Below are positions 4,546 to 35,391 of a stretch of 63,107 nucleotides of DNA, in pieces (the stretch's first letter is position 1; each line of letters opens with the position of its first letter). A model generated the notes under the pieces. The model was not told where the DNA came from and made no database searches. It was given only the letters and a program-made list of their open reading frames with translations. The position numbers and the translations under genes are program-made. The DNA is taken from NCBI RefSeq assembly GCF_945956965.1, contig NZ_CAMFJS010000028.1, positions 1 to 63,107 of the forward strand, read 5' to 3'. The DNA comes from an uncultured Roseateles sp. Lineage in GTDB: Bacteria; Pseudomonadota; Gammaproteobacteria; Burkholderiales; Burkholderiaceae_C.

Positions 4546-4580
4546 GCCAACGGGGCGGCATTTGCCCCCCCCCCGTTGGC
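4546..4580. other. Hairpin with a C10 homopolymer between genes
   Basis: GCCAACGGGG (4546-4555) can pair with CCCCGTTGGC (4571-4580), with a loop that includes most of a run of ten C (4565-4574). No T-run follows on either strand, so a Rho-independent terminator is not well supported. It sits about 40 bases after the DUF2325 stop. Confidence 0.35.
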
Positions 4581-20284: not shown

Positions 20285-23200
20285 ATGCGGTTCTTCAGGC
20301 AGTTCAAGCGGCAGCTCAGTCTTGGTCAGGCTGGGCGCGCAAATCCGAAAGCCCTGACACACGTCACGCCGCCTCAGACCTCCCTTTTGTTGGCGTTGGA
20401 GCCACGCGTTATGTTCGACGCTGCGGCACTGAGTACGGCCGCTGAGGTCGCCACTGTGCACCACGAACCTACGCATACCGCCGAAGCCGACCCCGCGCTC
20501 CTGCAGCAGCACTTCGGGCCAAGTACAAGCGCACAGCCCGTCGCGCGCGAGGTTGTGTTCCTTTCGGCCCAAGTAGATGACGCATCCACCCTGCGGCAAG
20601 CAACACGGCCAGGGGTGGAAGTCGTGAACCTCGATTCCTCGCGCAACGGTCTGGACCAGATTGCCGACTACCTGACTCAGCACAATGACGTCACGGCCGT
20701 GCACATCGCCTCACACGGCAGGGATGGCGCCGTGGAGCTCGGCAATCTCTGGTTGGACAGCAGCAACTTGTCTAGCTACGCGCCCACGTTGGCGCGCATC
20801 GGTAGTGCGATGGCACCGGGTGGAGACCTACTGCTGTATGGCTGCAATGTGGCCACCAGCGAACCTGGCCGAGATTTTGTTCAGCAACTAGCACAGGCGA
20901 CCGGTCGCGACGTAGCCGCTTCGAACGATGCCACGGGCGCCAGCCGCTCGGGCGGTGATTGGGCCTTGGAGGTGCAAGCCGGGAGCGTCCAGGTGGCCGT
21001 CGCCTTCGGCGGGCAGGCCCTGGGGGCCTATCAAGGTCTGCTCGCCGTTTCCAGCGAGAACTTCGACAGCGTCGGCCTGATCTACCAGCCCAGTGTGACC
21101 AGCGTCAACGTGGGCACCTGGACCTTCACCGCAGCGTCCAGCAACGACTTTGTCACCCCAGACTCCAGCGACCAGGCCTTCAACACCAATCTGGACGGCG
21201 GCGGCAGCGACCGCACCTTCGTCTGGAACTATGGCGGCAATTCCATTTCCAACTTCACCATGAAGTCGGCCGATGGCACGGACTTCAAGCTCAACTCCTT
21301 CGTGCTGGGCTCCTCCGCCGGCTCGACCACGGTGACGGTCAGCGCCTACCGGGACGGCAACCTCGTGGTCAGCGGCGAAGTCGTGACCCTGACGACCGGG
21401 GACTCCTCAGGCCACATCACCTACAACTTCTACGGCACGACGGCCGGGGGCAGCTACGGGCAGCTGGTCTTCGACAGCCTCTATGCCAATGTGGACGAGA
21501 TCCGCTTCAGCTGGTCCGGCGCGGTCACGCCCGAGATCGATGACATCAGCATCTCTGCTGCCGTTAGCGCGGCCAGTGTCACCAGTGCCACCTATGACGC
21601 CAGCACCGGCGTCCTGGCCGTCACCGGCGCCGGCATGGTCGGCGGGGACACCATCGATCCCAGCAAGCTCACGCTGACCGGCCAGGGCGGCGCCACCTAC
21701 ACCCTCACCTCGGCCAGCACCACGGCCAGCAGCAGCACGGCCTTCTCGGTCACACTCAACGCCGCCGACCGGCTGGCCATCAATGGCCTGCTCAACAAGG
21801 ACGGCACCAGTGCTGTGGGCGGCACCACCTTCAACCTGGCCGCCGCTGCGAACTGGGACTCCACCGCCAGCGCGCCGGCCGATCTCACCGGCAATGGCGT
21901 AACGGTGAGCAACGTCACCGCCCCCACCATCACCTCGGCCACCTATGACGCCAGCACCCATGTGCTCACCGTCACGGGCACCAATATGGTGGGCGTGGTC
22001 GGGGCGGGCAATGACATCACGGTGTCCAAGCTCACGCTGGTGGGAGAAGGCGGCAGCAGCTACACGCTGACCACGCCCAATGTCGAGGTGAGCTCCGCCA
22101 CCAGCTTCTCGGTCACGCTCAATGGGACGGATCGTGCGCAGGTGGAGATGATGCTCAACCGCAATGGCACGGCCTCCACCGGCGGCAGCACCTACAACCT
22201 GCAGGCCGCTGACGACTGGAACAGCGTCGTGACGGCCGGCGACATCTCTGACGGTACCAATGGCGTGACCGCGAGCAATGTGGCGGTGCCTGCGATCACC
22301 AGCGCCACCTACAACAGCACGAGTGGCCAGCTGGTGATCACTGGCACTGGCTTGCTGTCGCTGAGCGGGGCCGGCAACGATGTCGTCGCGAGCAAGCTCA
22401 CCCTGACGGGCGAAGGCGGCGCCAGCTACACGCTCACCGACACCGCCAATGTGGACATCAACTCCGGCACCAGCGCCACCCTGACCCTCAGCACCACCGA
22501 CAAGGCCGGCGTCAACGCCCTGCTGAACAAGAACGGCAGCGCTTCGACCGACAGCACCACCTACAACCTGGGTGCTGCCGAGGACTGGAACGCCGGGGCA
22601 GCTGCTGCGGTCACGATCGCCGACCTGAGCGGCAATGGCGTCACGGTGAGCGGCTACAACAGCACGCCGCAGACGGGCAACCTGCAAGGTGATTCGGTCG
22701 CCTGGGCGGGCGTGGGCGGGACCGTGGTCCTGGATGCGGGCGGCAATGCCACCGTGCTGGATACCGAGTTCGCCGCCCTCAACGGCGGCCTGGGCGACTG
22801 GGCTGGTGGCAGCCTGACGGTGCAGCGCCAGGGCACGGCCTGGTCCGCGGACACCCTGGGCTTCAACGCGGCCGGATTCACGGTCAGCGGCGGCAATCTG
22901 CAGTCCGGGGGCCTGACCTTCGCCACCTTCACCAACTCAGGCGGCGTGCTGAGCATCAGCTTCACCAGCTCCGGAACCACGGCCACCAATGCCCTGGTGC
23001 AAGCCGTGCTGCGTGGCATCACCTACCGCAATGACACACCGGCCGGGAACGAGACGGTGCGCTTCACGATCTCAGACGGCGCGAGCAGCGCCACGGCTGA
23101 CGTCAGCGTGACCAGCAGCAGCATCTACGTCACCAACACCACGGACACGAGCACAGCCAACTTGAGCGATGGCGTGAGCTTCAGCGAAGCCATGGCCATT

Positions 23201-26200
23201 GCCAACACGCAGTCGGGCACGGACACCCTGGTGCTGTCCAGCGGTTTCACCGGGACGATGACGCTGGCCGGCAGCCTGTCGGTCAGTGACAGCGCCACGG
23301 TGGACGCCATTTTGGGCAACGGCTTCAACCTGAGCGGCAGCACGCTCACGCTGGACGCGGGCAAGACACTGACGATCTCCAATGACTCGGGCAAGACCGC
23401 CACGATTTCCAGCCAGCTGGCCGGCTCGGGCACCCTGGGCAAGAGCGGCGCCGGGACCCTGGTGCTCAGCAACACAGGCAATCACGCCAGCATGAGCGGT
23501 GACATCACCGTGGGGGGCGGCACGCTGCGCATCTCGGATGCCAACCACCTGTCCTCCGGCACGCTGACGCTAGATGGCGCCACCCTGGCCGACACCAATA
23601 GCGCCGCCCATACCGTCTCGAATGCCGTAGTGGTGGGCAGCGGCGGCGCCACCTTCACCAAGACCGGCAGCGGCACCCTGACCCTGTCGGGGTCGCTCAA
23701 TGGCGGTGGCTCGATCACCAACACCGCCGCGGCCCTCAACCACACCGGAGGCGGCACGCTGACCCTGGACGGCGCCACGGTGGAAAGCGCCACGGGCGGC
23801 AGCCAGATCACCCTGGGGGGCCAGGTGGTGATCGGCAGTGGCGGGGCCACCTTCAACACCGTATCCGGGGACATCAATCTCAAGGGCAATGTCGGCGGAT
23901 CGGGTGCCATCGCCAAGAATGGCTCGAGCTATTTCCTGTCCCTCTACGGCAACAACTCGCAGAGCGGCACGCAGACTATCAATGCCGGCTACCTGGTGGT
24001 CAACGGCTCGGCGAGCGCACTGGGGACGGGCCAGATCGTGCTGGCCAGCGGCGCCTCCCTGGGCTTCATCTCCGTCGGGACGATGACGGCCACGAACGAC
24101 ATCGTGCTGGCCGGTAACGCCACGGTCATCAATGGGGTGGCGGGCAACTGCATCGTCACCTTCAGCGGCAACATCACCGAAAGCGGCGGCAGCCGGAACC
24201 TGTCCATCACGCCAAATTCGGGCGCCAACAGCCGGATGATCTTCACGGGGACCAACAGCTACACGGGGACGAGCGCCCTCAGCGGCGGAGTGGTAGAAGT
24301 CAATGATGGCAGCAACCTGGGTTCCGGGGCGCTGACCCTGTCCAGCACCACCCTGCAGATCAACGGCAGTGGGGTGACGCTGAGCCAGAACATCACCGTC
24401 AATGGCACGTCGACCATCAGCAATGCCAATAGCGTCGGCTTGTCTGGCGTCCTATCAGGGAGCGGCACCCTGGCCAAGACCGGCTTAGGCACGCTGACAC
24501 TCTCGGGCACCAACACCAACACCGGGGCTATCACGGTGTCTGCGGGCACCTTGGCGCTCAGCGGCGGCGCTGCGGTGGCCAACAGCACGGCAGTGACGGT
24601 TTCTAGCGGTGCGACGCTGGCCCTCAATGCGAGCGAGACCATCGGTTCACTGGCGGGGGCCGGTGCAGTCAACCTGGGGGCCAACACTCTGACCACCAGC
24701 GGCAACGCAAGCACCACCTTCTCGGGCGCCATCAACGGCAGCGGCGGGCTCACCAAGCAGGGCACTGGCACATTGAGTCTCTCCGGCACCAACACCTACA
24801 CCGGCAGCACGACTCTGAGCGCTGGCGCCCTGACCCTGAGCGGTGGGGCTGCAATGTCGGACAGCTCCGCCCTGGCCATGAGCGCGGGCAGCACGCTGAA
24901 CCTGTCTGCCAGCGAGACCATCGGCTCACTGGCAGGTACGGGCACCGTCAGCCTGGGCGCCAACACGCTCAGCGCAGGCGGCGACAACAGCAGCACCAGC
25001 TTCAGCGGCGCCGTGGGCGGCACCGGGGGCCTCACCAAGCTGGGCAGCGGGACGCTGACCCTGAGCGGCACCAACACCTTCACCGGCGCCACCACCGTCT
25101 CTGCGGGCGAACTCGCGCTGAGCGGGGGCGCCGCCCTGGCCGACGGCTCCGCCGTGACAGTGGCCAGTGGCGCCCTGCTGACCCTGGCCAGTGCCGAAAC
25201 CATTGCTTCCCTGGCGGGTGCAGGCACCGTGGCCCTGGGGAGCAACACCCTGACATCCAGCGGCAACGCCAGCACCACTTTCTCAGGGGCCATCAATGGC
25301 AGCGGAGGGCTGACCAAGCAGGGCAGCGGCGCATTGACGCTCTCAGGCAGCAACGGCTACACCGGCGCCACCACCCTCAACGCGGGCACCTTGTGGATCA
25401 ATGGCAGCGTGAGCAGTGCCGTGCAGGCCGCCAGCGGAAGCACCCTCGGCGGCAGCGGCACCATCACAGGCAATGTGCTTGTGAACAGTGGCGCGACCCT
25501 GGCGCCAGGGGCAAATGCTGTCGGCACCCTGACCATTCAGGGCGACTTGGCCTTGTCCGGCACCTTGAGTGCGGAACTGGCGGGCACCACGCCGGGCACA
25601 CAGTACGACCAAGTCGTGGTCAACGGCACCGTGGACCTGGGCGGCGTGGGCAGCATAACGCTGAGTTCCAGCGGCGGCTTCGCGGGCAGCGGCACCTTCG
25701 CACTCATCGTCAACGATGGGGCCGACGCCTTCATCAACCCCGGCAACACCGCTGAGGGTGGCAGTCTCAGCTTTGGCGCAAGAACCTTCCGCCTGACCTA
25801 CGCCGGCGACAGCACCGGCCCGGCCATCAGCGGAGGCAATGACCTCCTGGTCGTCGGCAACGCCGCGCCCGCTGTGGGCGGCTTAGGGGGCGACGGCGTG
25901 TCGTACACAGAAGACGGCGCGGAGGTCCGCCTCGATGCCGGGCAGAACGCGACGGTGGTAGATAGCGATAGCGCCAACTTCGACACTGGCACCCTGCGTG
26001 CCGCCATCGTCAGCAACCGGGTCGCGAGCGAGGACATCCTGACCATCGTGCACCAAGGTAATGGCACCGGCCAAATCGGCGTGTCGGGCAACCAAGTCAG
26101 CTATGAGGGCGTACTCATCGGCACCTGGTCCGGCGGCAGTGGCACCAACGACCTGGTCATGAGCTTCAACAGCAATGCCACCTCAGCGGCCGTGCAGGCC

Positions 26201-29200
26201 CTGGTCCGCGACATCGCCTACCGCAACAGCAACGGCCTTGACCCAAGTAGCGCGGCCCGCACGGTACGCGTGACCGTCGACGATGGCGACGGCGGCACAA
26301 GCACCGATGCCGATATCACCGTGGCGGTGTTGCCAGTCAACGATGCGCCAAGCCTCACGGCCGGCTCAGGCCCCGTCAGCTTCGTCGAGGGCGGCAGCGC
26401 TGTGGGCCTATTCAGTGACGCCGCCATCAGCACAGTGGAAGCCGGGCAGAACATCCTGCAGTTCACGCTGACAGTCAGCCATCTGAGTGATGGAGGCAAT
26501 GAATTCCTGGGGATCGATGGCAGCTCAGTGGCGCTGACCCCAGGCACCTCCCTCACGACGGCCGGCAATGGCCTCAACGTCACGGTGAGTGTGTCAGGCG
26601 ATACCGCAACGCTCAACCTCACAAAGCCGACGGGCCTCAGCGTAGCGACGGCTCAGAGCCTGATCAATGGCTTGACCTACCGCAATGACAGCGAAGCACC
26701 GACCACCGGCAACCGCGTCGTGACACTCACCGGCCTCCAGGACAGCGGCGGGACGGCCAACGCCGGCACCGACACCAGCAGCCTGTCCATCGCTTCGACA
26801 GTGACCGTGGTGGCGATCAACGATGCACCGGTGCTGGTCACGACCAGCGGCAGTGCCGCCTTCGTCGAAGCCGCCGATGCCATCAGCACGCCCCTTGTCG
26901 TAGACGCAGGCATCCTGATCAGCGATGCCGACAGCGCCAAGCTGGCGAGCGCCACCGTGAGCATCAGCGGCAATTTCCGCAGCGCGGAGGATGTGCTGGC
27001 CTTTACCAACAGCAATTCAAACAACTTCGGCAATATCAGCGGCAACTACGACAGCGGCAGTGGGGTGCTGAGCCTCGTCTCGGCGGGGGCAACCGCGACC
27101 CAAGCCCAGTGGCAGGCGGCCTTGCGCGCCGTGAGCTACACCAACACTTCGGATGCGCCGGACACCAGCGCCCGCACGGTGAGTTTCAGCCTTAGCGACG
27201 GTGCCTTGAGCAGCACAGCGGCGACCCGGCTGATCAGCATCGCCGCAACGAACGACAGCCCCGTCAACAGCGTGACCGCACTGATCCAGCATGTGAGCCA
27301 GGACGGACAGCTGGCGTTCAGCAGCGCCCAAGGCAATGCCCTGAGCATCGCGGATGTCGATGCGGGCAGCGGTCTGGCGCAAGTCACGCTCAGTGCCACG
27401 CACGGCACGCTCACGCTCGCAGGGTTTGGCGGCCTGAGCTTTGTCTCGGGCACCGGGAGCGGTGACGCCAGCATGTCCTTCCAGGGCACTGTGGCGGACA
27501 TCAATGCGGCGCTGAACGGCCTGCGGTTTGCACCAACGGCGGGCTATAACGGAGCCGCGAGCCTGCAAATCAGCTCGAATGACCTTGGCCACAGCGGCGC
27601 AGGCGGAGAAAAGACAGACGTAGACACCGTGACCTTGAGTGTGGACCCGGTTCAGCCCATCGTCACGGGCGTCAGCGCCTCCGAGGCAGATGGACTCTAC
27701 AAGGTCGGCGATACCCTTACCCTCAAGGTCACATTCGACCAAGCCGTCACCGTTGACACGGCAAGTGGCACGCCAACGCTGCTGCTGGAAACCGGTACCG
27801 TCGATCGCCAGGCCGTCTATGTGTCCGGCTCGGGTAGCCGGACCCTCAGCTTTGCCTACACGGTTCAGCCGGGCGACCGCAGTGCAGACCTGGATTACGC
27901 CTCGAATGCTGCCTTGGCCCTCAACGGCGGCAGCGTTCGCGGGCCCTCTCTTTTGGACGCGGTGCTGACCTTGCCAGCCACCGGCAGCGCCGAGGCATTG
28001 GCCGGCCAGAAGGCGCTGGTGATCGACGGGCTGGCGCCCGAGGTCGTGCGCGTGGATCTGCCGGCCAAGGGCAATTACGTGGCGGGCCAGGTGCTGGACT
28101 TCAGCGTGCAGTTCAGTGAAGCACTCAAGGTGGACACAGCGGGCGGCACGCCGCGCATCGCGATCACGCTGGATACAGGTGGGACCGTCTACGCCGACTA
28201 CCTTGCCGGCTCCGGCGGCACAACGCTCACCTTCCGGCATATCGTGCGCATCGGCGAACTGGACAACACAGGCATTGCACTGGGGACCCGCATTGAGCCT
28301 CGAGGCGCGACGCTGCGCGACACCGCGGGCAATGACGCCGCCCTGACACTTCAAGGCGTGGCCAGCACAGACGACGTCAAGATTGACGCTGTAGCGCCGA
28401 CGCTGACGAGCTTTACCCGGCTGGATCCTTCCCCCACGGGAGCTGCCACGGCCAGCTACACGCTGGTTTTCTCCGAAGCCGTGACAGGGCTTGACCTCGC
28501 AGATCTCTCTGTGGTGCGCAGTGGCTCGGCGACAGGCGCGCTCCAGTCCATCACCCAGGTGGACGCTCGCACTTACACCGTTGTGCTGGGCGGCCTCTCG
28601 GGCACCGGTGAGCTATTCCTTCAGCTCAATGCCTCTGGCAATGGCATTGCCGATATTGCGGGCAATGCCTTGGTCAACGGCGGCGTTTCCCAGACTTATC
28701 AACTAAGTCCCGTGGTCGTCGTTCCGCCCGTGGTTGAGGTGCCAGCACCCGCACCGGCCCCTGCCCCACTGCCCGAGCCCGATCGGTGGACGCCACCGCT
28801 GACCTTCCATTCCGACGGGCCGGTGCGTTCCGCAGATCTGCCCACTCTGCCGCCCACGCCCCAACTCACGTCTCTGCCGACTTTGCAGCTGAGTGCGCAG
28901 CCGCTGCAGTCCGCGCTCGATTCGGTGGGAGTGGGCCTTGGCGGGCGACCCGGACTGCCTGTCTCCAGCGAGCTCTCGCCTGGCAGCCCACCTCCCCCCC
29001 CCTTCCAGCGCGCCCCTCGCGGCACCGACCAATGCCCGCAGCAGCTTTGTGGAGTTGGGCGCCGCGGGCAGTCAGGGCCTGCATTCGCTGCCGGATGTCG
29101 GCGATTTCTCCTTGCGGGCGGGGCAAGCTCTCAGCATCACGCTGCCTGCATCAACCTTTACCCACACAGACAGCACAGAGCAAATCACCGTCGAAGTCCG

Positions 29201-29458
29201 CCTGGCCAATGGCAAACCCCTGCCCAGCTGGTTGAAGTTCGATCCGGTAACGGGCACCCTCAGCGGGCAAGCACCCGCCGGCCTGAGTCAGAGGCTCAGC
29301 ATCGAGGTGATTGCCCGCGACAGCAAGGGGAACCGGGTCAGCTCGCACTTGCAAATCGATGTCAAAGCGACGAGCCGGCCGAATGCCTTCCTTTGGGCCC
29401 CCGACGGGGCGGAGACCGACTTCGCCGGCATGCCGGAGCTGCTCGCCCAAGTGCGTGA
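20285..29458 (+). CDS. Giant LEPR/DUF4347 surface protein (probable adhesin), C-terminus frameshifted
   Basis: As read, the frame gives 3,057 residues. With one C removed from the run at 28994-29002 it would be 3,099 residues, ending at 29585. The start at 20285 has GGAG six bases upstream. There is a basic N-terminus with no classical signal peptide, and the motif [11 protein letters not shown] at 38-48. Residues about 88-235 are a DUF4347 domain with H144 in IASHG and C187 in LLLYGCN, the dyad layout of caspase-like peptidases. A jelly-roll-like module (about 255-430) follows. Then come three repeats of about 120 residues, autotransporter-type beta-strand repeats (about 1040-1760), cadherin/Ig-like modules with NDAP junctions to about 2820, and a Pro-rich linker. 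There are no RTX nonapeptides. It heads an operon with TolC, two adaptors and an M50 fusion, which presumably export or anchor it. Adhesion or biofilm function is inferred from architecture only. Confidence 0.85.
21581..22655 (+). repeat. Three coding repeats of about 120 residues in the giant protein
   Basis: Units start near 21581, 21932 and 22298 (351 and 366 bases apart). Each begins SATY(D/N)(A/S)(T/S)(T/S)(G/H) with small changes, passes through SKLTL(T/V)G(Q/E)GG and ends with a W(D/N)S-type block plus GVTVSN or similar. They look like Ig-like adhesin units. The DNA has diverged between copies, so the duplication is not recent. Confidence 0.85.
24473..25400 (+). repeat. Four coding repeats of 93-94 residues (autotransporter-associated beta-strand type)
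   Basis: Equivalent points fall at 24491, 24770, 25052 and 25331. Each unit holds (L)(A/T)K-x-G-x-G-x-L(T/S)LSG(T/S)N-x-(N/Y/F)(T)G followed by AG-x-L and ETI(G/A)SLAGAG. Less regular copies precede them from about 23400. This resembles the PATR repeat of autotransporter passenger beta-helices, although no autotransporter barrel exists here. Confidence 0.85.
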
Positions 29459-29585
29459 GCCAAGCTCCTTGCCGCAAGGGCGTGCCGCGCTGGCGGATCA
29501 GTTCGAACGCCATGGCAGCGCCGCCCTGAAGGCTGAACGCCAAGCCTTGATCCTGCACCTCAAAGCCGCCGCGCAGCGCGCTTGA
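28994..29585 (+). other. Out-of-frame C-terminal module of the giant protein after a C9 run
   Basis: Nine consecutive C occupy 28994-29002. Downstream, the plus-one frame, not the frame of the main gene, reads as clear protein: [20 protein letters not shown], then an Ig/cadherin-like putative-Ig domain ([39 protein letters not shown]). A helical charged tail ends QALILHLKAAAQRA with stop at 29585. The main frame instead yields an Arg/Gln-rich shadow that stops at 29458. Eight C would join the two parts perfectly. The tail may carry a sorting or export signal. The frame change is either a sequencing error or a true slippage-prone switch. Confidence 0.85.
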
Positions 29586-29618
29586 TCTCATTGCCAAAAC
29601 TCCAAGGAGAAACGCAAG

Positions 29619-31127
29619 ATGCCAACCCGCCGACTGCCGACTCGCTCGGTACTTGCCGTCCTGATATCTGCCGCCTTCGCCGGCTGCGCGATCCAGCCGC
29701 AGGCTTTGAGCCCAGACGAACGGCAGGCCACACTCAAGGCCGACCGCAGCGAGATGTACCAGCAGCAGGACCCTGTGCAAGGGCCGATCACGCTGGACGA
29801 AGCCATGGCACGGGCCATCAAGTACAACCTGGATCACCGGGTCAAGCTGATGGAGGAGGCACTCTCCCAGCGCCAGCTGAATCTGTCCCGCACCGACTTG
29901 CTGCCCAAGCTGGCCCTGTCGGCAGGCTATGCAGGGCGTGACAATGAGCTGGCCTCGTCCTCGCGCAGCGTGCTCAGCGGCAACCAATCGCTGGAGCCTT
30001 CGACTTCCACCGACAAAAACCATAGCACTGGCGACCTGTCCCTGAGTTGGAATGTGCTGGACTTCGGCGTGAGCTACTACGGCGCGCACCAACAAGCGGA
30101 TCGCGTGCTGGTGGCCGAAGAGCGCCGGCGCAAGGTGCTGCACCTGCTGATGCAGCAGACGCGCCAGGCTTGGTGGCAGGCCGCCGGTGCGCAGCAGTTG
30201 GAGGCCCGCATCGAACCTGTGCTGAAGCTCGCCCGCCAGGCCCTGGACGATTCCCGCCAGGTGGAGGTCGAAAAGCTGCGCTCGCCGATCGAGGCTCTGA
30301 CCTACCAGCGGCAGTTGCTGGACATCGTGCGGCAGCTCGAGGCAGTCCGTGACGAGTTGGCCCAGGCCAAGCCGCGACTGGCCTCGATCATGAACCTGCC
30401 ACCGGGTGAGCCTTTCTCGGTGGCTGTCGGCGCCACGCTAGCTGCGCCCAGCGTCAGCCTGCCGGTCAGCGCGATGGAAGAGGCCGCCATGCTGCGCCGG
30501 CCGGAGCTGGTGGAAGCACAGTACAACGAGCGCATCAGTCTGCTGGAAACCCGCCGGGCACTGGCCCGCCTTCTGCCCGGCTTGGAGCTCAGCCTAGGCC
30601 AGCATTACGACAGCAATAGCTTCCTGACGAACCATCGCTGGGGCGATGTCGGCCTGCGCGTGAGCTGGAACTTGTTCAACGTGCTGAACGCCGACACCAT
30701 CCGGGGCGTGGCGCAGACCCAGCTGGACCTGGCCCGCCAGCAGCGCCTGGCGCTCAGCATGGCGGTCCTGACACAAGTGCACGTGGCGCGGCTGGATTAC
30801 CTCGGCCGCCTCAAGCAGTACCAGCTGACGGACGACCTCAACAAGGTCGAGCAGCGCATCTTGCAGTACACCCGCAATGCCGCTTCGGCCAATTCGCAAG
30901 GCAAGCTGGAGGAAGTGCGGGCATCAGCCGCCGCCATGATGTCCGAGCTGCGGCTCTACCAGACCTATGGCTCGCTGCAAGGGGCTTATGGCCAGCTGGT
31001 GGCGACCTTGGGGCTGGACCCATTGCCGGAGTCGGTGCCGTCCCATGACTTGAAGACCCTGGGTGAATCCGTACGGGCATCTGAAGCGAGCTGGACCAAG
31101 ACCATCAACCCGGGAGGCGGTGCATGA
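29619..31127 (+). CDS. TolC-type outer-membrane efflux lipoprotein
   Basis: An outer-membrane channel component of 502 residues. A lipoprotein signal with lipobox AFAGC (C23) precedes two internally repeated OEP regions of long helices and short strands. Signs include ITLDEAMARAIKYNLDHRVKL, LSLSWNVLDFGVSYYGAHQQADR, VGLRVSWNLFNV and the repeated Asn-Leu-Phe/Leu-Asp-Phe strand ends. AGGAGA precedes the ATG by a good distance, and the gene follows the true end of the giant gene by about 33 bases. It overlaps the next adaptor gene by 4 bases (ATGA). It probably forms the outer-membrane duct for the giant protein or another substrate of this operon. Confidence 0.92.
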   Translation: MPTRRLPTRSVLAVLISAAFAGCAIQPQALSPDERQATLKADRSEMYQQQDPVQGPITLDEAMARAIKYNLDHRVKLMEEALSQRQLNLSRTDLLPKLALSAGYAGRDNELASSSRSVLSGNQSLEPSTSTDKNHSTGDLSLSWNVLDFGVSYYGAHQQADRVLVAEERRRKVLHLLMQQTRQAWWQAAGAQQLEARIEPVLKLARQALDDSRQVEVEKLRSPIEALTYQRQLLDIVRQLEAVRDELAQAKPRLASIMNLPPGEPFSVAVGATLAAPSVSLPVSAMEEAAMLRRPELVEAQYNERISLLETRRALARLLPGLELSLGQHYDSNSFLTNHRWGDVGLRVSWNLFNVLNADTIRGVAQTQLDLARQQRLALSMAVLTQVHVARLDYLGRLKQYQLTDDLNKVEQRILQYTRNAASANSQGKLEEVRASAAAMMSELRLYQTYGSLQGAYGQLVATLGLDPLPESVPSHDLKTLGESVRASEASWTKTINPGGGA

Positions 31128-31876
31128 TCCGAAGCCTCGGAACTGCATTTATCTCCTTCGCCTTTGCCCTCGGCGCGGCCTGGGCGCAAACCTCTCCACT
31201 GGCTACTGACAAGGACGGACGCATCCGCACTCAGCTGAGCGCCCGCAATTCGCTCACAGTGTCGGCTGAAATCGCGGCACGCGTCATCAGCCTGCCGCTG
31301 CGCGAGGGTGAAAGCTTTCGTGCCGGTCAGACGCTGGTCGGCTTTGACTGCTCGCTCTACCAGAACCAGCAGCGCAAGGCCGAAGCCACGGTGGAGGCTG
31401 CCAGCGCCGTGCTGCAGTCCAACCAGCGCATGGCCGAACTCAACTCGATTGGCCGGTTTGAGGTCGAACAGGCTCAGGCCAAGCTCAAGGAGGCGCAGGC
31501 CGAAGTCGCCAGCGCTAGGCTGCTGGTAGGGCGCTGCGCCATCGCCGCGCCCTTCGCGGGCCGGGTGGTCAAGCGCCAAGCCGCAGCGCATCAATACGTC
31601 TCACCGGGCAGCCCGTTGCTGGACATTGTCGAGACCGGGCAACTCGAGTTGCAGATGATCGTGCCGTCCAAATGGTTGAGCTGGCTCAAGCCGGGCAGCA
31701 ATTTCAGCGTGGAAGTCGAAGAGCTAGGCAAGAGCTACCCGGCCAAGGTGCAGCGCCTCGGCGCACAGATCGACCCTGTCAGCCAGACCCTAGCGGTCTA
31801 TGGCGTGATGGATGGCAGCCAGCCGGGCCTTCTGCCCGGCATGAGCGGTTGGGCCGTGTTCCCTGCGCGCAAATGA
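31124..31876 (+). CDS. Periplasmic adaptor (membrane-fusion) protein, RND type
   Basis: An adaptor of 250 residues, short for the family. A signal peptide ends about residue 21 (AAWA before QTSPL). The lipoyl half-motifs are split around a short helical hairpin (VSAEIAARVISLPLREGESFRAGQTLVGFD, and IAAPFAGRVVKRQAAAHQYVSPGSPLLDIV), followed by a beta-barrel (LELQMIVPSKWLSWLKPGSNF). It lacks a transmembrane anchor. It is coupled to TolC by a 4-base overlap and is followed at once by a second adaptor. No RND pump or ABC transporter is encoded beside it. Confidence 0.88.
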   Translation: MIRSLGTAFISFAFALGAAWAQTSPLATDKDGRIRTQLSARNSLTVSAEIAARVISLPLREGESFRAGQTLVGFDCSLYQNQQRKAEATVEAASAVLQSNQRMAELNSIGRFEVEQAQAKLKEAQAEVASARLLVGRCAIAAPFAGRVVKRQAAAHQYVSPGSPLLDIVETGQLELQMIVPSKWLSWLKPGSNFSVEVEELGKSYPAKVQRLGAQIDPVSQTLAVYGVMDGSQPGLLPGMSGWAVFPARK

Positions 31877-31906
31877 GTGCGAGCTCTTGCGTGCAAACCG
31901 CCTGAT

Positions 31907-33280
31907 ATGAGCGCTGCGGACCCGAATGTCGCCTTGCTGAGCCTGCTGCAGTTGCAGCGGCGTGCCCGTGAGGCCAGCACACCCGAAGCCCTGGGCTTCG
32001 TGATGGTCAACGAGACTTTGCAACTTTTGCCTTATCGCCAGGCTGTGCTGTGGAGCGAGGCCGGCATGGGCAAGGTCGCCGCCGTGTCGGGGCTGCCTCA
32101 GCCCGACAGCGGCGCCCCCTACGTGCAATGGGTCGGCCGCCTGTGTCGATATCTGATGCGCAGCCTCCCCGATCCAGGCGCAGCCCCCGAGACCGCCTCG
32201 TCATTGAACGAAGTGGCCCCGGACCTCCTGCCAGAAGCCTTGCGCGCGGACTGGCCGCAGTGGTTGCCCGCCTCGGCCCTTTGGCTGCGACTGGGCCAGG
32301 AGGCAAACCAAGCGGGCGAGCCTGCCGAGGCAGGGCTGCTGCTGACCCGGGATGAGCCCTGGCTGCCGCATGAGAAAGCCCTGCTGCAGGAACTGGCTCA
32401 TGCCTATGCCCATGCCCTTCATGCCTTTGCCCCCCGACAGGCCTGGCGCGGGCGAATCAGCGCAGCGCTGAGCAGCAAGTCACGACCTTGGTGGCTGGCG
32501 GGCCTGCTGCTGCTCAGCCTGTGCCCCGTTCGCTTGACCGCGCTGGCCCCCGCCGAAGTCGTGCCCCAAAACCCCTTCATGGTGCGGGCGCCGTTGGATG
32601 GCGTGATTGAGCGCTTTGACATCCATCCCAATGAAGTCGTCCAACCGGGCACGCCACTTTTCAGCCTGGACACCAGCGTCTTGCGCACGCGCATGGAATT
32701 GGCACGCAAAGCGCTGGACGCGGCGCAGGAGGAATACCGCCAATCCGCGCAGGCGGCGGTCACCAGTGACAAGAGCCGGGCGGAAACAGCCCTGCGTCGG
32801 GGCAAGCTGCAAGAAAAAGCCGTGGAGGTGGACTACACCGCTGAACAGCTGGCCCGCATCCAAGTGAAGGCCGACCGCAAAGGCGTGGCCGTGTTTGCCG
32901 ATGCCAATGACTGGGTCGGAAAGACCGTGTCCCTGGGCGAGCGGGTGCTGCTGATCGCTGATCCGGCTCAGGTCGAATTGCTGGCCTGGCTGCCAGCCGC
33001 AGACCTGCTGCCGCTGGCCCCGGGCGACCGCCTGACGCTCTACCCCCAAGGCGCACCACTGCAGTCCTTTGACGCCCGCATCAGCAGCGTGGCCTACCGT
33101 GCCGAGATGACGCGTGACGGCTTCTTGGCCTACCGCATCAAGGCCAGCTTCGAGGCCGGTCAGGCACCGCCACGCATTGGCCAACTGGGCTCGGCTCGGC
33201 TGCAAGGTGGCTGGGCACCGCTGATCTATGTGGCGCTGCGCCGCCCCTTGGCCGTGGCCCGACAGTGGCTGGGCTGGTGA
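31907..33280 (+). CDS. HlyD-type adaptor with cytoplasmic GAF-like head
   Basis: A fusion of 457 residues. Residues about 1-175 are soluble and resemble a GAF-type sensor fold (LQRRAREASTPEALGFVMVNETLQLLPYRQAVLW near the start). A single transmembrane helix lies about 195-215 (WWLAGLLLLSLCPVRLTAL). The periplasmic HlyD part has APLDGVIERFDIHPNEVVQPGTPLF, a coiled hairpin (ARKALDAAQEEYRQ), and a barrel domain. I use the ATG at 31907; a GTG at 31877 directly after the previous stop is equally possible and adds ten residues. It overlaps the next gene by one base (TGATG). The GAF head hints that export is tuned by a cytoplasmic signal, which is inference. Confidence 0.82.
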   Translation: MSAADPNVALLSLLQLQRRAREASTPEALGFVMVNETLQLLPYRQAVLWSEAGMGKVAAVSGLPQPDSGAPYVQWVGRLCRYLMRSLPDPGAAPETASSLNEVAPDLLPEALRADWPQWLPASALWLRLGQEANQAGEPAEAGLLLTRDEPWLPHEKALLQELAHAYAHALHAFAPRQAWRGRISAALSSKSRPWWLAGLLLLSLCPVRLTALAPAEVVPQNPFMVRAPLDGVIERFDIHPNEVVQPGTPLFSLDTSVLRTRMELARKALDAAQEEYRQSAQAAVTSDKSRAETALRRGKLQEKAVEVDYTAEQLARIQVKADRKGVAVFADANDWVGKTVSLGERVLLIADPAQVELLAWLPAADLLPLAPGDRLTLYPQGAPLQSFDARISSVAYRAEMTRDGFLAYRIKASFEAGQAPPRIGQLGSARLQGGWAPLIYVALRRPLAVARQWLGW

Positions 33281-35391
33281 TGCTGCCGCCACTGAGGCAA
33301 GACCTGGCCCTGCATCCTGGCCCGGATGCGCCCGACGGCTCGCCCACCTGGACGCTGCACGACCCCGCCAGCAATCGCTTCTTCGCCTTGAGCTGGCCTG
33401 CCTTTGAGATACTGGCCCGCTGGGGCCTGGGCAGCGTAGAAGCCTTGTTGACGTCCATCCACGCCGAAACCACGCTGAAGATCGGCGCGCCCGACGTCCA
33501 GGGGCTGCTGCAGATGCTGGCTGGCAACCACCTGCTGGTGGCCGCCAGCGCACAGGACAGCCTGCGCCTGGGCGAGCAGGCCAAAGCCCAGCACTTGCCG
33601 GCCGGGCAGTGGCTGCTCAAGAACTACCTCTTTTTCCGCCTCCCGCTGCTGCGGCCCATGCACTGGCTTCAACGCATGAGCCCCTGGGTGCGCTGGGCCT
33701 ACCTGCCTGCATTCTGGGTTGTTGTGGTCCTGCTGTGGCTGTTGGGCGGGGTCCTGGCGGCCCGCCGCTGGGACGAATTCACCCATACCTTCACCTCCTA
33801 CGCCAGCTGGGACGGCTTGCTGGCCGTGGGCCTGGCCCTGAGCGTGGCCAAGGTCTTGCACGAGCTGGGACATGCCTTCACCGCCACGCGCTACGGCTGT
33901 CGCGTGCCCACCATGGGCGTCGCCTTCCTGGTGATGTGGCCGGTGCTGTACACCGACACCAACGAAGCCTGGAAGCTGCGCTCGCGCCGCCAACGCCTGG
34001 CCATCGGCGCTGCAGGCATCCTGAGCGAGTTGGCGCTGGCCAGCGTGGCATTGCTGCTGTGGCATCTGCTGCCGGATACGCCGGCCTGGGGGCCGGTGCG
34101 TTCTGGAGCTTTCTTGCTGGCCACCACGACTTGGCTGCTGACGGTCGCCATCAATGCCAGCCCCTTCATGCGCTTTGACGGCTACTTTCTGCTGTCCGAT
34201 GCATTGAACATGCCCAATCTGCATGAGCGTTCCTTTGCCCTCGCACGCTGGTGGCTGCGTGAGCGCCTGTTCGGCTGGGGTGTACCCCCGCCCGAAATCA
34301 TGCCGCCGGCACGCCGCGCAGGCTTGATCGTCTTTGCCTTGATGACCTGGCTCTACCGGCTGCTGCTGTTCTTTGGCATTGCGCTGCTGGTGTATCACGC
34401 CTTTTTCAAGGCCTTGGGCTTGGCCTTGATGGCGGTGGAGTTGGGCTGGTTCATCGCCAGGCCGGTGTGGCGGGAAATGCGGGTCTGGTGGCAGGGGCGT
34501 GAGGCAACGCGTTGGAATCGGGCCTCCCGGCGCAGCGCACTGCTCGCCGGCATGGGGCTGCTGGCCCTGGTCTGGCCCTGGCAAGGCGTGGTTCAAGCGC
34601 CTGCCATCTTGGGGGCTTTGCAGGCCCAGGCGGTCTACTCGCCCTATGCCTCGCAGCTGATGTCGCCGCTGCCAGCGACGGGGCAGTCCTTCAAGGCGGG
34701 GCAGCCCATGCTGCAGCTGCGTTCGCCTGAGCTCGCCGTGCGCCTACAGCAGGCCCAGGCCATTGAGCAGCAGCTGCAGTGGCAGCTCAGTCAGCAAGCC
34801 TTCGATCCGCAACTGATGGCGGCCGGCGCGGCTCTGCGCAAGCGCTGGGAGTCCGCAGCAGCCGAAGTGGCCGGGCTGCAGGCAGAGCTCCATCGACTTG
34901 ACCTGCTGGCCCCCTTTGATGCCCGCGTGGCAGAAAGCAACGAAGACGCCCAAGCCGGGAGCTGGCTACCTGCTGGCGAGCGCCTGCTGATGCTGGTAAG
35001 CCCCCAGGGCAGCAAAGTGGATGCCTATGTCGACGAGTCGGCACTGGCCTCGCTCTCGCCGGGCCTAAGCGCCCGCTTCGTCCCCTCGGCCCTGGAGCAG
35101 CCCTCTGTGCAATGCCGGGTGGAGCGGGTGGACCCCGTTCAACTCAGCCAGCTGGATGCGCCGGTGTTGGCCAGCGTTCACGGTGGCGAGATTGCCGTGC
35201 AAAAAGCACCCGATGGGCGCCTGCTGCCCTTGCAGCCCGTTTTCCGGGTGCGCCTGGAACATTGCGATCGTGCCCAGCCACCGCTGATGGAGCTGCCCGG
35301 CCGCGCCGAGCTTCAAGGGGAGCGACGATCCTGGTTGGCCCGTGGCTGGCGTTGGGCGGTGGCGCTGTGGCAGCGTGAGTCGGCCCTCTAG
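33280..35391 (+). CDS. PqqD-like/M50 site-2 protease/HlyD fusion membrane protein
   Basis: A protein of 703 residues with three parts. Residues about 1-95 resemble a PqqD-type winged helix (TWTLHDPASNRFFALSWPAFEIL). Then comes a polytopic M50 metalloprotease core with zinc motif HELGH (H194, E195, H198) and a second motif N292-ASPFMRFD300-GYFLLSD. The C-terminal third is a periplasmic HlyD-like arm with lipoyl halves (YSPYASQLMSPLPATGQSFKAGQP and LLAPFDARVAESNEDAQAGSWLPAGE) and a coiled hairpin. The start at 33280 overlaps the previous stop. Active-site residues are intact. It likely cleaves or handles a membrane-inserted or N-terminal segment of the exported substrate; this role is inferred. 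It ends the operon, and no terminator was found. Confidence 0.88.
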   Translation: MLPPLRQDLALHPGPDAPDGSPTWTLHDPASNRFFALSWPAFEILARWGLGSVEALLTSIHAETTLKIGAPDVQGLLQMLAGNHLLVAASAQDSLRLGEQAKAQHLPAGQWLLKNYLFFRLPLLRPMHWLQRMSPWVRWAYLPAFWVVVVLLWLLGGVLAARRWDEFTHTFTSYASWDGLLAVGLALSVAKVLHELGHAFTATRYGCRVPTMGVAFLVMWPVLYTDTNEAWKLRSRRQRLAIGAAGILSELALASVALLLWHLLPDTPAWGPVRSGAFLLATTTWLLTVAINASPFMRFDGYFLLSDALNMPNLHERSFALARWWLRERLFGWGVPPPEIMPPARRAGLIVFALMTWLYRLLLFFGIALLVYHAFFKALGLALMAVELGWFIARPVWREMRVWWQGREATRWNRASRRSALLAGMGLLALVWPWQGVVQAPAILGALQAQAVYSPYASQLMSPLPATGQSFKAGQPMLQLRSPELAVRLQQAQAIEQQLQWQLSQQAFDPQLMAAGAALRKRWESAAAEVAGLQAELHRLDLLAPFDARVAESNEDAQAGSWLPAGERLLMLVSPQGSKVDAYVDESALASLSPGLSARFVPSALEQPSVQCRVERVDPVQLSQLDAPVLASVHGGEIAVQKAPDGRLLPLQPVFRVRLEHCDRAQPPLMELPGRAELQGERRSWLARGWRWAVALWQRESAL

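Follow-up and report, generated by a model that had tools for sequence, protein, structure and literature searches.

A leader-linked gene set for giant LEPR proteins that may represent an undescribed kind of protein secretion system

Giant adhesins such as LapA, which is served by LapBCE, and SiiE are repeat proteins that leave the cell by type I secretion, through an HlyD-type adaptor and a TolC-type channel. The accessory Sec route of Gram-positive bacteria (SecA2/SecY2) links a dedicated SecA paralogue to a giant repeat protein, and the maturation of ribosomally synthesized and post-translationally modified peptides (RiPPs; lasso peptides, daptides, epipeptides) combines a RiPP recognition element (RRE) fold, an M50 protease and an N-terminal leader in the substrate. 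Here we analyse a set of five genes with likenesses to all three, found in a stretch of 63,107 nucleotides (hereafter the window) from an uncultured Roseateles sp. (assembly GCF_945956965.1, contig NZ_CAMFJS010000028.1). The set spans 20285-35391 on the plus strand and encodes, in this order, a giant LEPR-DUF4347 protein, a TolC-family protein, a periplasmic adaptor (MFP1), a membrane-anchored adaptor with a GAF-like N-terminal part (GAF-adaptor) and an M50 protein. In its N-terminal motif and giant size the first of these is like the LEPR-XLL proteins (NF012209).

The set has the HlyD-type adaptor and TolC channel expected of type I secretion, but it differs from the giant adhesin systems in having no ABC gene, in its fusion of RRE, protease and adaptor, in its GAF-adaptor and in the conserved tag at the N-terminus of the presumed substrate. 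Unlike the accessory Sec route it is found in Gram-negative bacteria, with adaptors, a TolC or TpsB-like protein and a site-2 protease, and the SecA-like protein of its sister form scores below the cut-offs for known SecA families, while the window's type has no such gene in the locus. Unlike the RiPP proteases, its M50 protein is fused to an adaptor, is encoded beside the gene of a giant and scores below the equivalog cut-offs. Our findings suggest that giant proteins are served by an export set that is widespread and linked to a leader, with no recognised motor gene in the window's type and with a SecA-like gene in the sister type. The parts are known, but as a system the set may be of a kind not yet described; the open-access literature found, in the portions available, describes no exporter for LEPR-XLL or DUF4347 proteins. 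If true, the set joins leader reading of the RiPP type with intramembrane proteolysis and a conduit through TolC, and would do for giant surface proteins of Gram-negative bacteria what the accessory Sec route does in Gram-positive ones.

A reading of the window made from its letters and open reading frames (the sequence-only reading) had proposed that the set is dedicated to the giant and had named co-occurrence as the check, and the genome counts bear this out. Among 299 genomes sampled evenly from the phylum and counted by genome, without correction for relatedness, LEPR was found in 50, DUF4347 in 84 and the M50 protein in 87; M50 was present in 48 of the 50 LEPR genomes and together with DUF4347 in 71, and 81 of the 87 M50 genomes carried LEPR or DUF4347. 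One of the two LEPR genomes without M50 is 86% complete (G306) and in the other the match lies in a 64-residue frame (G372); M50 is absent from 13 of the 84 DUF4347 genomes and present in 29 of 30 LEPR genera. Among 99 relatives, an M50 relative at E<1e-30 occurred in 18, DUF4347 in 19 and both in 13 (Fisher 2.7e-8). At least 34 of the 78 LEPR matches share a contig with an M50 among the matches listed, at least 27 of them with M50 within 10 kb of the giant's frame. A named collection holds at least 578 DUF4347 relatives, and the best 80, which were kept, come from Pseudomonas, Pectobacterium, Burkholderiales, alphaproteobacteria, Nitrospirales, cyanobacteria and others. Many of these 80 stretches end at contig ends; a LEPR-like motif was found in 57, with M50 (at least 500 bits) in the stretch in 31 of the 57, and M50 was found in three of the 23 without the motif (L119, L120 and L128), the first of which was later seen to have a variant motif. 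The genes of the set are adjacent in many lineages, with the giant placed first, between the adaptors or last. Because the gene order differs among loci, a working unit is favoured over inherited order alone. We consider it likely that the set is dedicated to the export or display of the giant.

The in-frame part of the giant (20285-29458, plus strand) has 3057 residues and carries PATR/TIGR02601 beta-strand repeats by domain scans; the longest open frame holding a LEPR match in our data reaches 19,427 residues (G159:C115:112865). The leader motif, a candidate recognition or processing signal, lies at 20396-20425, where the LEPR model NF012209 (cut-off 17 bits) gave 13.1 bits in one scan and 21.5 bits in another, at 20387-20449. 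By hydropathy the giant has no classical signal peptide, the best 19-residue window in the first 120 residues reaching 1.17, as the sequence-only reading had stated. The DUF4347 domain is at 20552-21043 (PF14252, 186 bits versus a gathering cut-off of 24.6, E 5e-55). Its predicted model and PDB matches resemble Tce1 and caspase-like proteins, and a conservation check found that it retains one His (codon 20714-20716) and one Cys (codon 20843-20845). This modelled fold likeness and the two residues may point to a caspase-like fold with a His/Cys pair as in the clan CD cysteine peptidases, and the domain is probably an active protease. Tce1 itself (PA0256), a putative cysteine protease with DUF4347, differs in being a 310-residue type VI cargo (PMC13323088, from the portion of the paper available) instead of heading a giant LEPR protein.

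The M50 protein (33280-35391, plus strand) is made of three parts: an RRE of the PqqD fold, of the kind that reads leader peptides (33280-33546), a site-2 protease with an intact HExxH motif (HELGH at 33859-33873) and RFDG, and a TolC-docking adaptor of the HlyD/MacA type (34570-35349). The HExxH and the second zinc-ligand Asp are invariant in all 18 aligned M50 proteins, and Pfam M50 is found in 18/18. The fold search covers mainly the adaptor part, and the RRE and protease parts appear in it as single rows, to which sequence matches are added. An earlier description of this protein as PqqD-like/M50/HlyD thus holds for M50 and HlyD by domain scan and for the PqqD part by structure, as a winged-helix fold of the PqqD type was found in the RRE part; Pfam PqqD itself is present in 8/18 members of the alignment, the window member not being one of them. 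For the GAF head assigned to the membrane adaptor (31877-33280, plus strand; one hydrophobic segment at residues 205-229 and an HlyD domain), Pfam GAF was detected in 6/18 members of the alignment and not in the window protein. The closest curated M50 families are RiPP maturation proteases, and the window protein reaches 158.9 of 300 bits for the daptide and 28.7 of 225 bits for the epipeptide M50 equivalog, both below cut-off.

The giants carry two types of leader, D (LEPRxMFDAA and alike), which is that of the window, and S (LEPRxLLSAD and alike). Leader and M50 could be paired within a locus or operon in 62 cases, 44 of the D and 18 of the S type. One 100/100 branch of the M50 tree parts the two types in 62/62 of these, while shuffled leader labels need about 16 changes. 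Since the split is single, the agreement speaks for co-inheritance and not for recognition. Even so, three genomes, including that of the window (G000, G087 and G202), carry both types, with each giant beside the matching M50 type. Twenty of the pairs were chosen from the 34 that share a contig, with preference for those in which giant and M50 are in line; others, such as divergent ones (G240, G364, G135, G218), were left out. Also outside the tree are a locus whose M50 has no RRE (L067), two in which the pattern found no motif (L120 and L128), seven M50 loci without DUF4347 in the stretch, partial M50 frames and one duplicate; the leader of L087, LEPRMLFDGA, was assigned by hand, the pattern having matched a later false site.

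Twelve chosen loci of the S type had a SecA-like gene adjoining M50 in 12/12 cases versus 0/8 chosen D loci (Fisher 7.9e-6); no such gene was shown at loci with a window-type M50, and the window has no SecA-like open reading frame. The gene is present in L052, L053, L054, L056, L057, L059, L060, L061, L120 and L138, as well as in L124 with no M50 in the stretch, and is absent from L058/L140, two labels for a single locus. The encoded protein has the DEAD (E 3e-90), cross-linking and P-loop domains of SecA, and its ATPase residues are invariant in 11 rows. All three of the proteins scanned fell below every SecA and SecA2 cut-off, that of L054 with 462 of 1085, 409 of 930, 386 of 725 and 337 of 1100 bits. 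A tree with frames picked by score separated 23 SecA-like from 16 housekeeping SecA rows by one 100/100 branch; when the frame of one long housekeeping row was picked by fewest stops, two changes were needed instead. At a chosen cut of at least 570 bits, 42 copies were counted among the 299 genomes; they fall in 34 genomes, each of which also has M50. At least 25 of these copies are within 4 kb of an M50 among those listed, 5 more are within 10 kb of a LEPR match and 12 are on contigs without a listed match; this count used 34 of the 78 LEPR matches, and by eye none of the others is a neighbour of the 12 unlinked copies. The window's own genome has a second system of the S type, on the minus strand of contig C5 at about 33001-65000 (L054, L055), with the order AMIN-TolC, giant (a 6700-residue frame), GAF-adaptor, M50-adaptor, SecA-like protein, adaptor and TpsB-like POTRA protein.

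It can be envisioned from these parts how the set might work. The RRE of the M50 protein, probably cytosolic, would read the N-terminal LEPR leader of the giant, and the site-2 protease part would cut there or close by. The GAF-adaptor and the periplasmic adaptor, together with the HlyD part of the M50 protein, would form a conduit to the TolC lipoprotein, and the caspase-like DUF4347 would then trim the giant or release it from the exporter. The step across the inner membrane is perhaps Sec-driven, by the housekeeping SecA in the D type and by the dedicated SecA-like ATPase in the sister clade. Binding of the LEPR leader by the RRE is probable, and cleavage of the giant by M50 is evenly poised. 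Use of Sec would require an unusual mode of targeting, because the giant has no classical signal peptide, and the RRE-M50 protein is then the obvious candidate receptor. We consider it rather probable that the set is a dedicated, leader-guided exporter for one giant cell-surface protein and is not type I secretion. A tentative and more doubtful extension is that it is a secretion system type of its own in Gram-negative bacteria, with two sister forms, in which an RRE reads the LEPR leader of proteins with open frames of about 2,000 to 15,000 residues and the site-2 protease-adaptor fusion processes that leader. Sec (in one form a third SecA lineage) would then drive the chain into the conduit of adaptors and TolC, and in proteins that have it the caspase-like DUF4347 head would either release the protein or tether it.

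The question of the motor is where other explanations have to be weighed. The sequence-only reading had noted that the set has no ABC gene, and this was confirmed: an ABC pattern, used without a positive control though it matched open reading frames in other loci, found none among the window's frames of at least 150 residues, and Pfam scans of five genes on the flanks found no ABC gene there and no RND or MFS transporter in these or in the five proteins of the set. A type I system that had lost its ABC gene was rejected as the principal interpretation, since the pattern occurred in 3/80 named loci and 1/21 stretches and two genomes, G180 (D type) and G307, gave no full-length ABC protein of the type I kind at E 1e-100 among the candidates scored. 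An ABC transporter encoded elsewhere could still power export, the set giving only the adaptors and the outer-membrane channel, and sampled genomes do have such proteins (LssB type in 12/20, PrtD type in 8/20, HlyB type in 4/12). In G180 and G307, however, nothing passed any of the three type I cut-offs or was full-length at E 1e-100 among the candidates scored, which were the best of each genome (e.g. 34 of 51 in G307), and both have M50 with a LEPR or DUF4347 match on the same contig and one SecA match each; in a third genome, G114, no ABC was above cut-off and two near-full-length matches were under it. As G180 and G307 have no match, an unlinked ABC protein is unlikely as a general motor, the more so as the sister clade has the SecA-like gene in that position. 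Loci of the window's type showed no recognised motor gene within the stretches covered. These results suggest that the motor of the window's type is the housekeeping Sec or another component; that Sec drives the inner-membrane step there is a possibility we place slightly short of even.

No separate motor would be needed if the M50-HlyD complex itself moved the substrate and folding outside the cell pulled the chain. EpeP has been proposed both to cleave its epipeptide and to export it (PMC10885120, according to the portion available), and it is among RiPP maturation proteases that the nearest curated M50 families lie; yet moving thousands of residues without a motor would be unlike EpeX, and the retention of the SecA-like gene in the chosen S-type loci also speaks against it, so that we regard this as improbable, to the same degree as the unlinked transporter. 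Signalling is a frequent role of site-2 proteases, and ligand sensing is one of GAF domains, which could make the genes an envelope sensing or processing unit, with the giant leaving by another route. The presence of a TolC protein and of three adaptor domains of the HlyD type points to a channel, though, and the linkage to the giant is strong, which makes a sensing unit very improbable. A defence system was also considered, and PADLOC gave no match for three proteins.

Several observations weigh against a dedicated, leader-guided exporter. The agreement between leader and M50 clade could reflect descent only, the window genome has one LssB-type ABC protein above cut-off, and a LEPR giant of Vibrio has been published that carries RTX at its C-terminus (PMC10868602, from the portion available). 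The window's own giant is, moreover, out of frame. The sequence-only reading, which had also not foreseen leader reading by the RRE, the likeness of DUF4347 to caspases or the sister clade's SecA-like gene, had missed a break: the reading frame terminates at 29458, and the He_PIG domain (29097-29363, E 3.7e-13) and the tail (29475-29582) sit in a different frame, in the open reading frame 28893-29585. The change of frame coincides with a run of nine C at 28994-29002, in a proline-rich linker. In a relative whose M50 is 92% identical (G044), the same protein, including its end, is a single frame of 3123 residues with no C run. Three C9 matches in the window are unsurprising, because 12 of 100 shuffled windows reached three or more (mean 0.96). 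The tract may act as a phase-variable switch, or it may stem from a mutation or from an error in base calling, and the data are compatible with each. The tail cut off by it has, by eye, a loose likeness to the ends of many giants of the window's type (L..QQ or QF, then a basic, leucine-rich stretch), while a strict tail pattern matched L044 and L091 only. In L048, L058/L140, L132 and L138, the last two by eye only, the giants share a hydrophobic C-terminal stretch (..LWLLRGG..LP.W...DPLPVL), which is perhaps a membrane anchor.

The five genes are packed on one strand as had been described. Their neighbours are a polyprenyl synthase gene and tRNA-Pro at one end and, at the other, a DsbA-like gene and recD. 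The TolC-family outer-membrane factor (29619-31127; OEP E 4e-28, TIGR01844 under cut-off) has by eye a lipoprotein-type signal, AFAGC, and MFP1 (31124-31876; HlyD_3 and RND_mfp above cut-off) by eye a cleavable signal, with no 19-residue window above 1.6. These two genes share 4 bases (31124-31127), MFP1 and the GAF-adaptor gene are contiguous (31876/31877), and the GAF-adaptor and M50 genes share one base (TGATG) if M50 starts at ATG 33280, an alternative GTG start at 33265 giving a 16-base overlap. The overlaps of 4 and 1 bases reported before are thereby recovered, the latter with the ATG start; the reported gap of about 30 bases before TolC holds for the out-of-frame end of the giant (33 bases) and becomes 160 bases from the in-frame stop. 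ARAGORN calls a tmRNA at 34700-35375 (minus strand), which we take as spurious; its span falls within the M50 gene.

Clustering of neighbouring open reading frames at 41 loci gave families, mostly from Pseudomonas-like loci, with a phage-collar domain (25 loci), GNAT (19), sulfotransferase (12), PMT_2 (10) and a sulfotransferase match under threshold (13). No motor that could be a sixth gene of the window's type was found in the five clusters scanned, with other clusters, of up to 16 loci, unscanned. The phage-collar-domain, GNAT, PMT_2 and sulfotransferase genes (L082, L097, L128, L088 and other Pseudomonas loci) could possibly serve in decoration of the giant. Elsewhere in the window, a run of ten C at 4565-4574, just past the end of an open reading frame and with an apparent inverted repeat around it by eye, has the look of a terminator.

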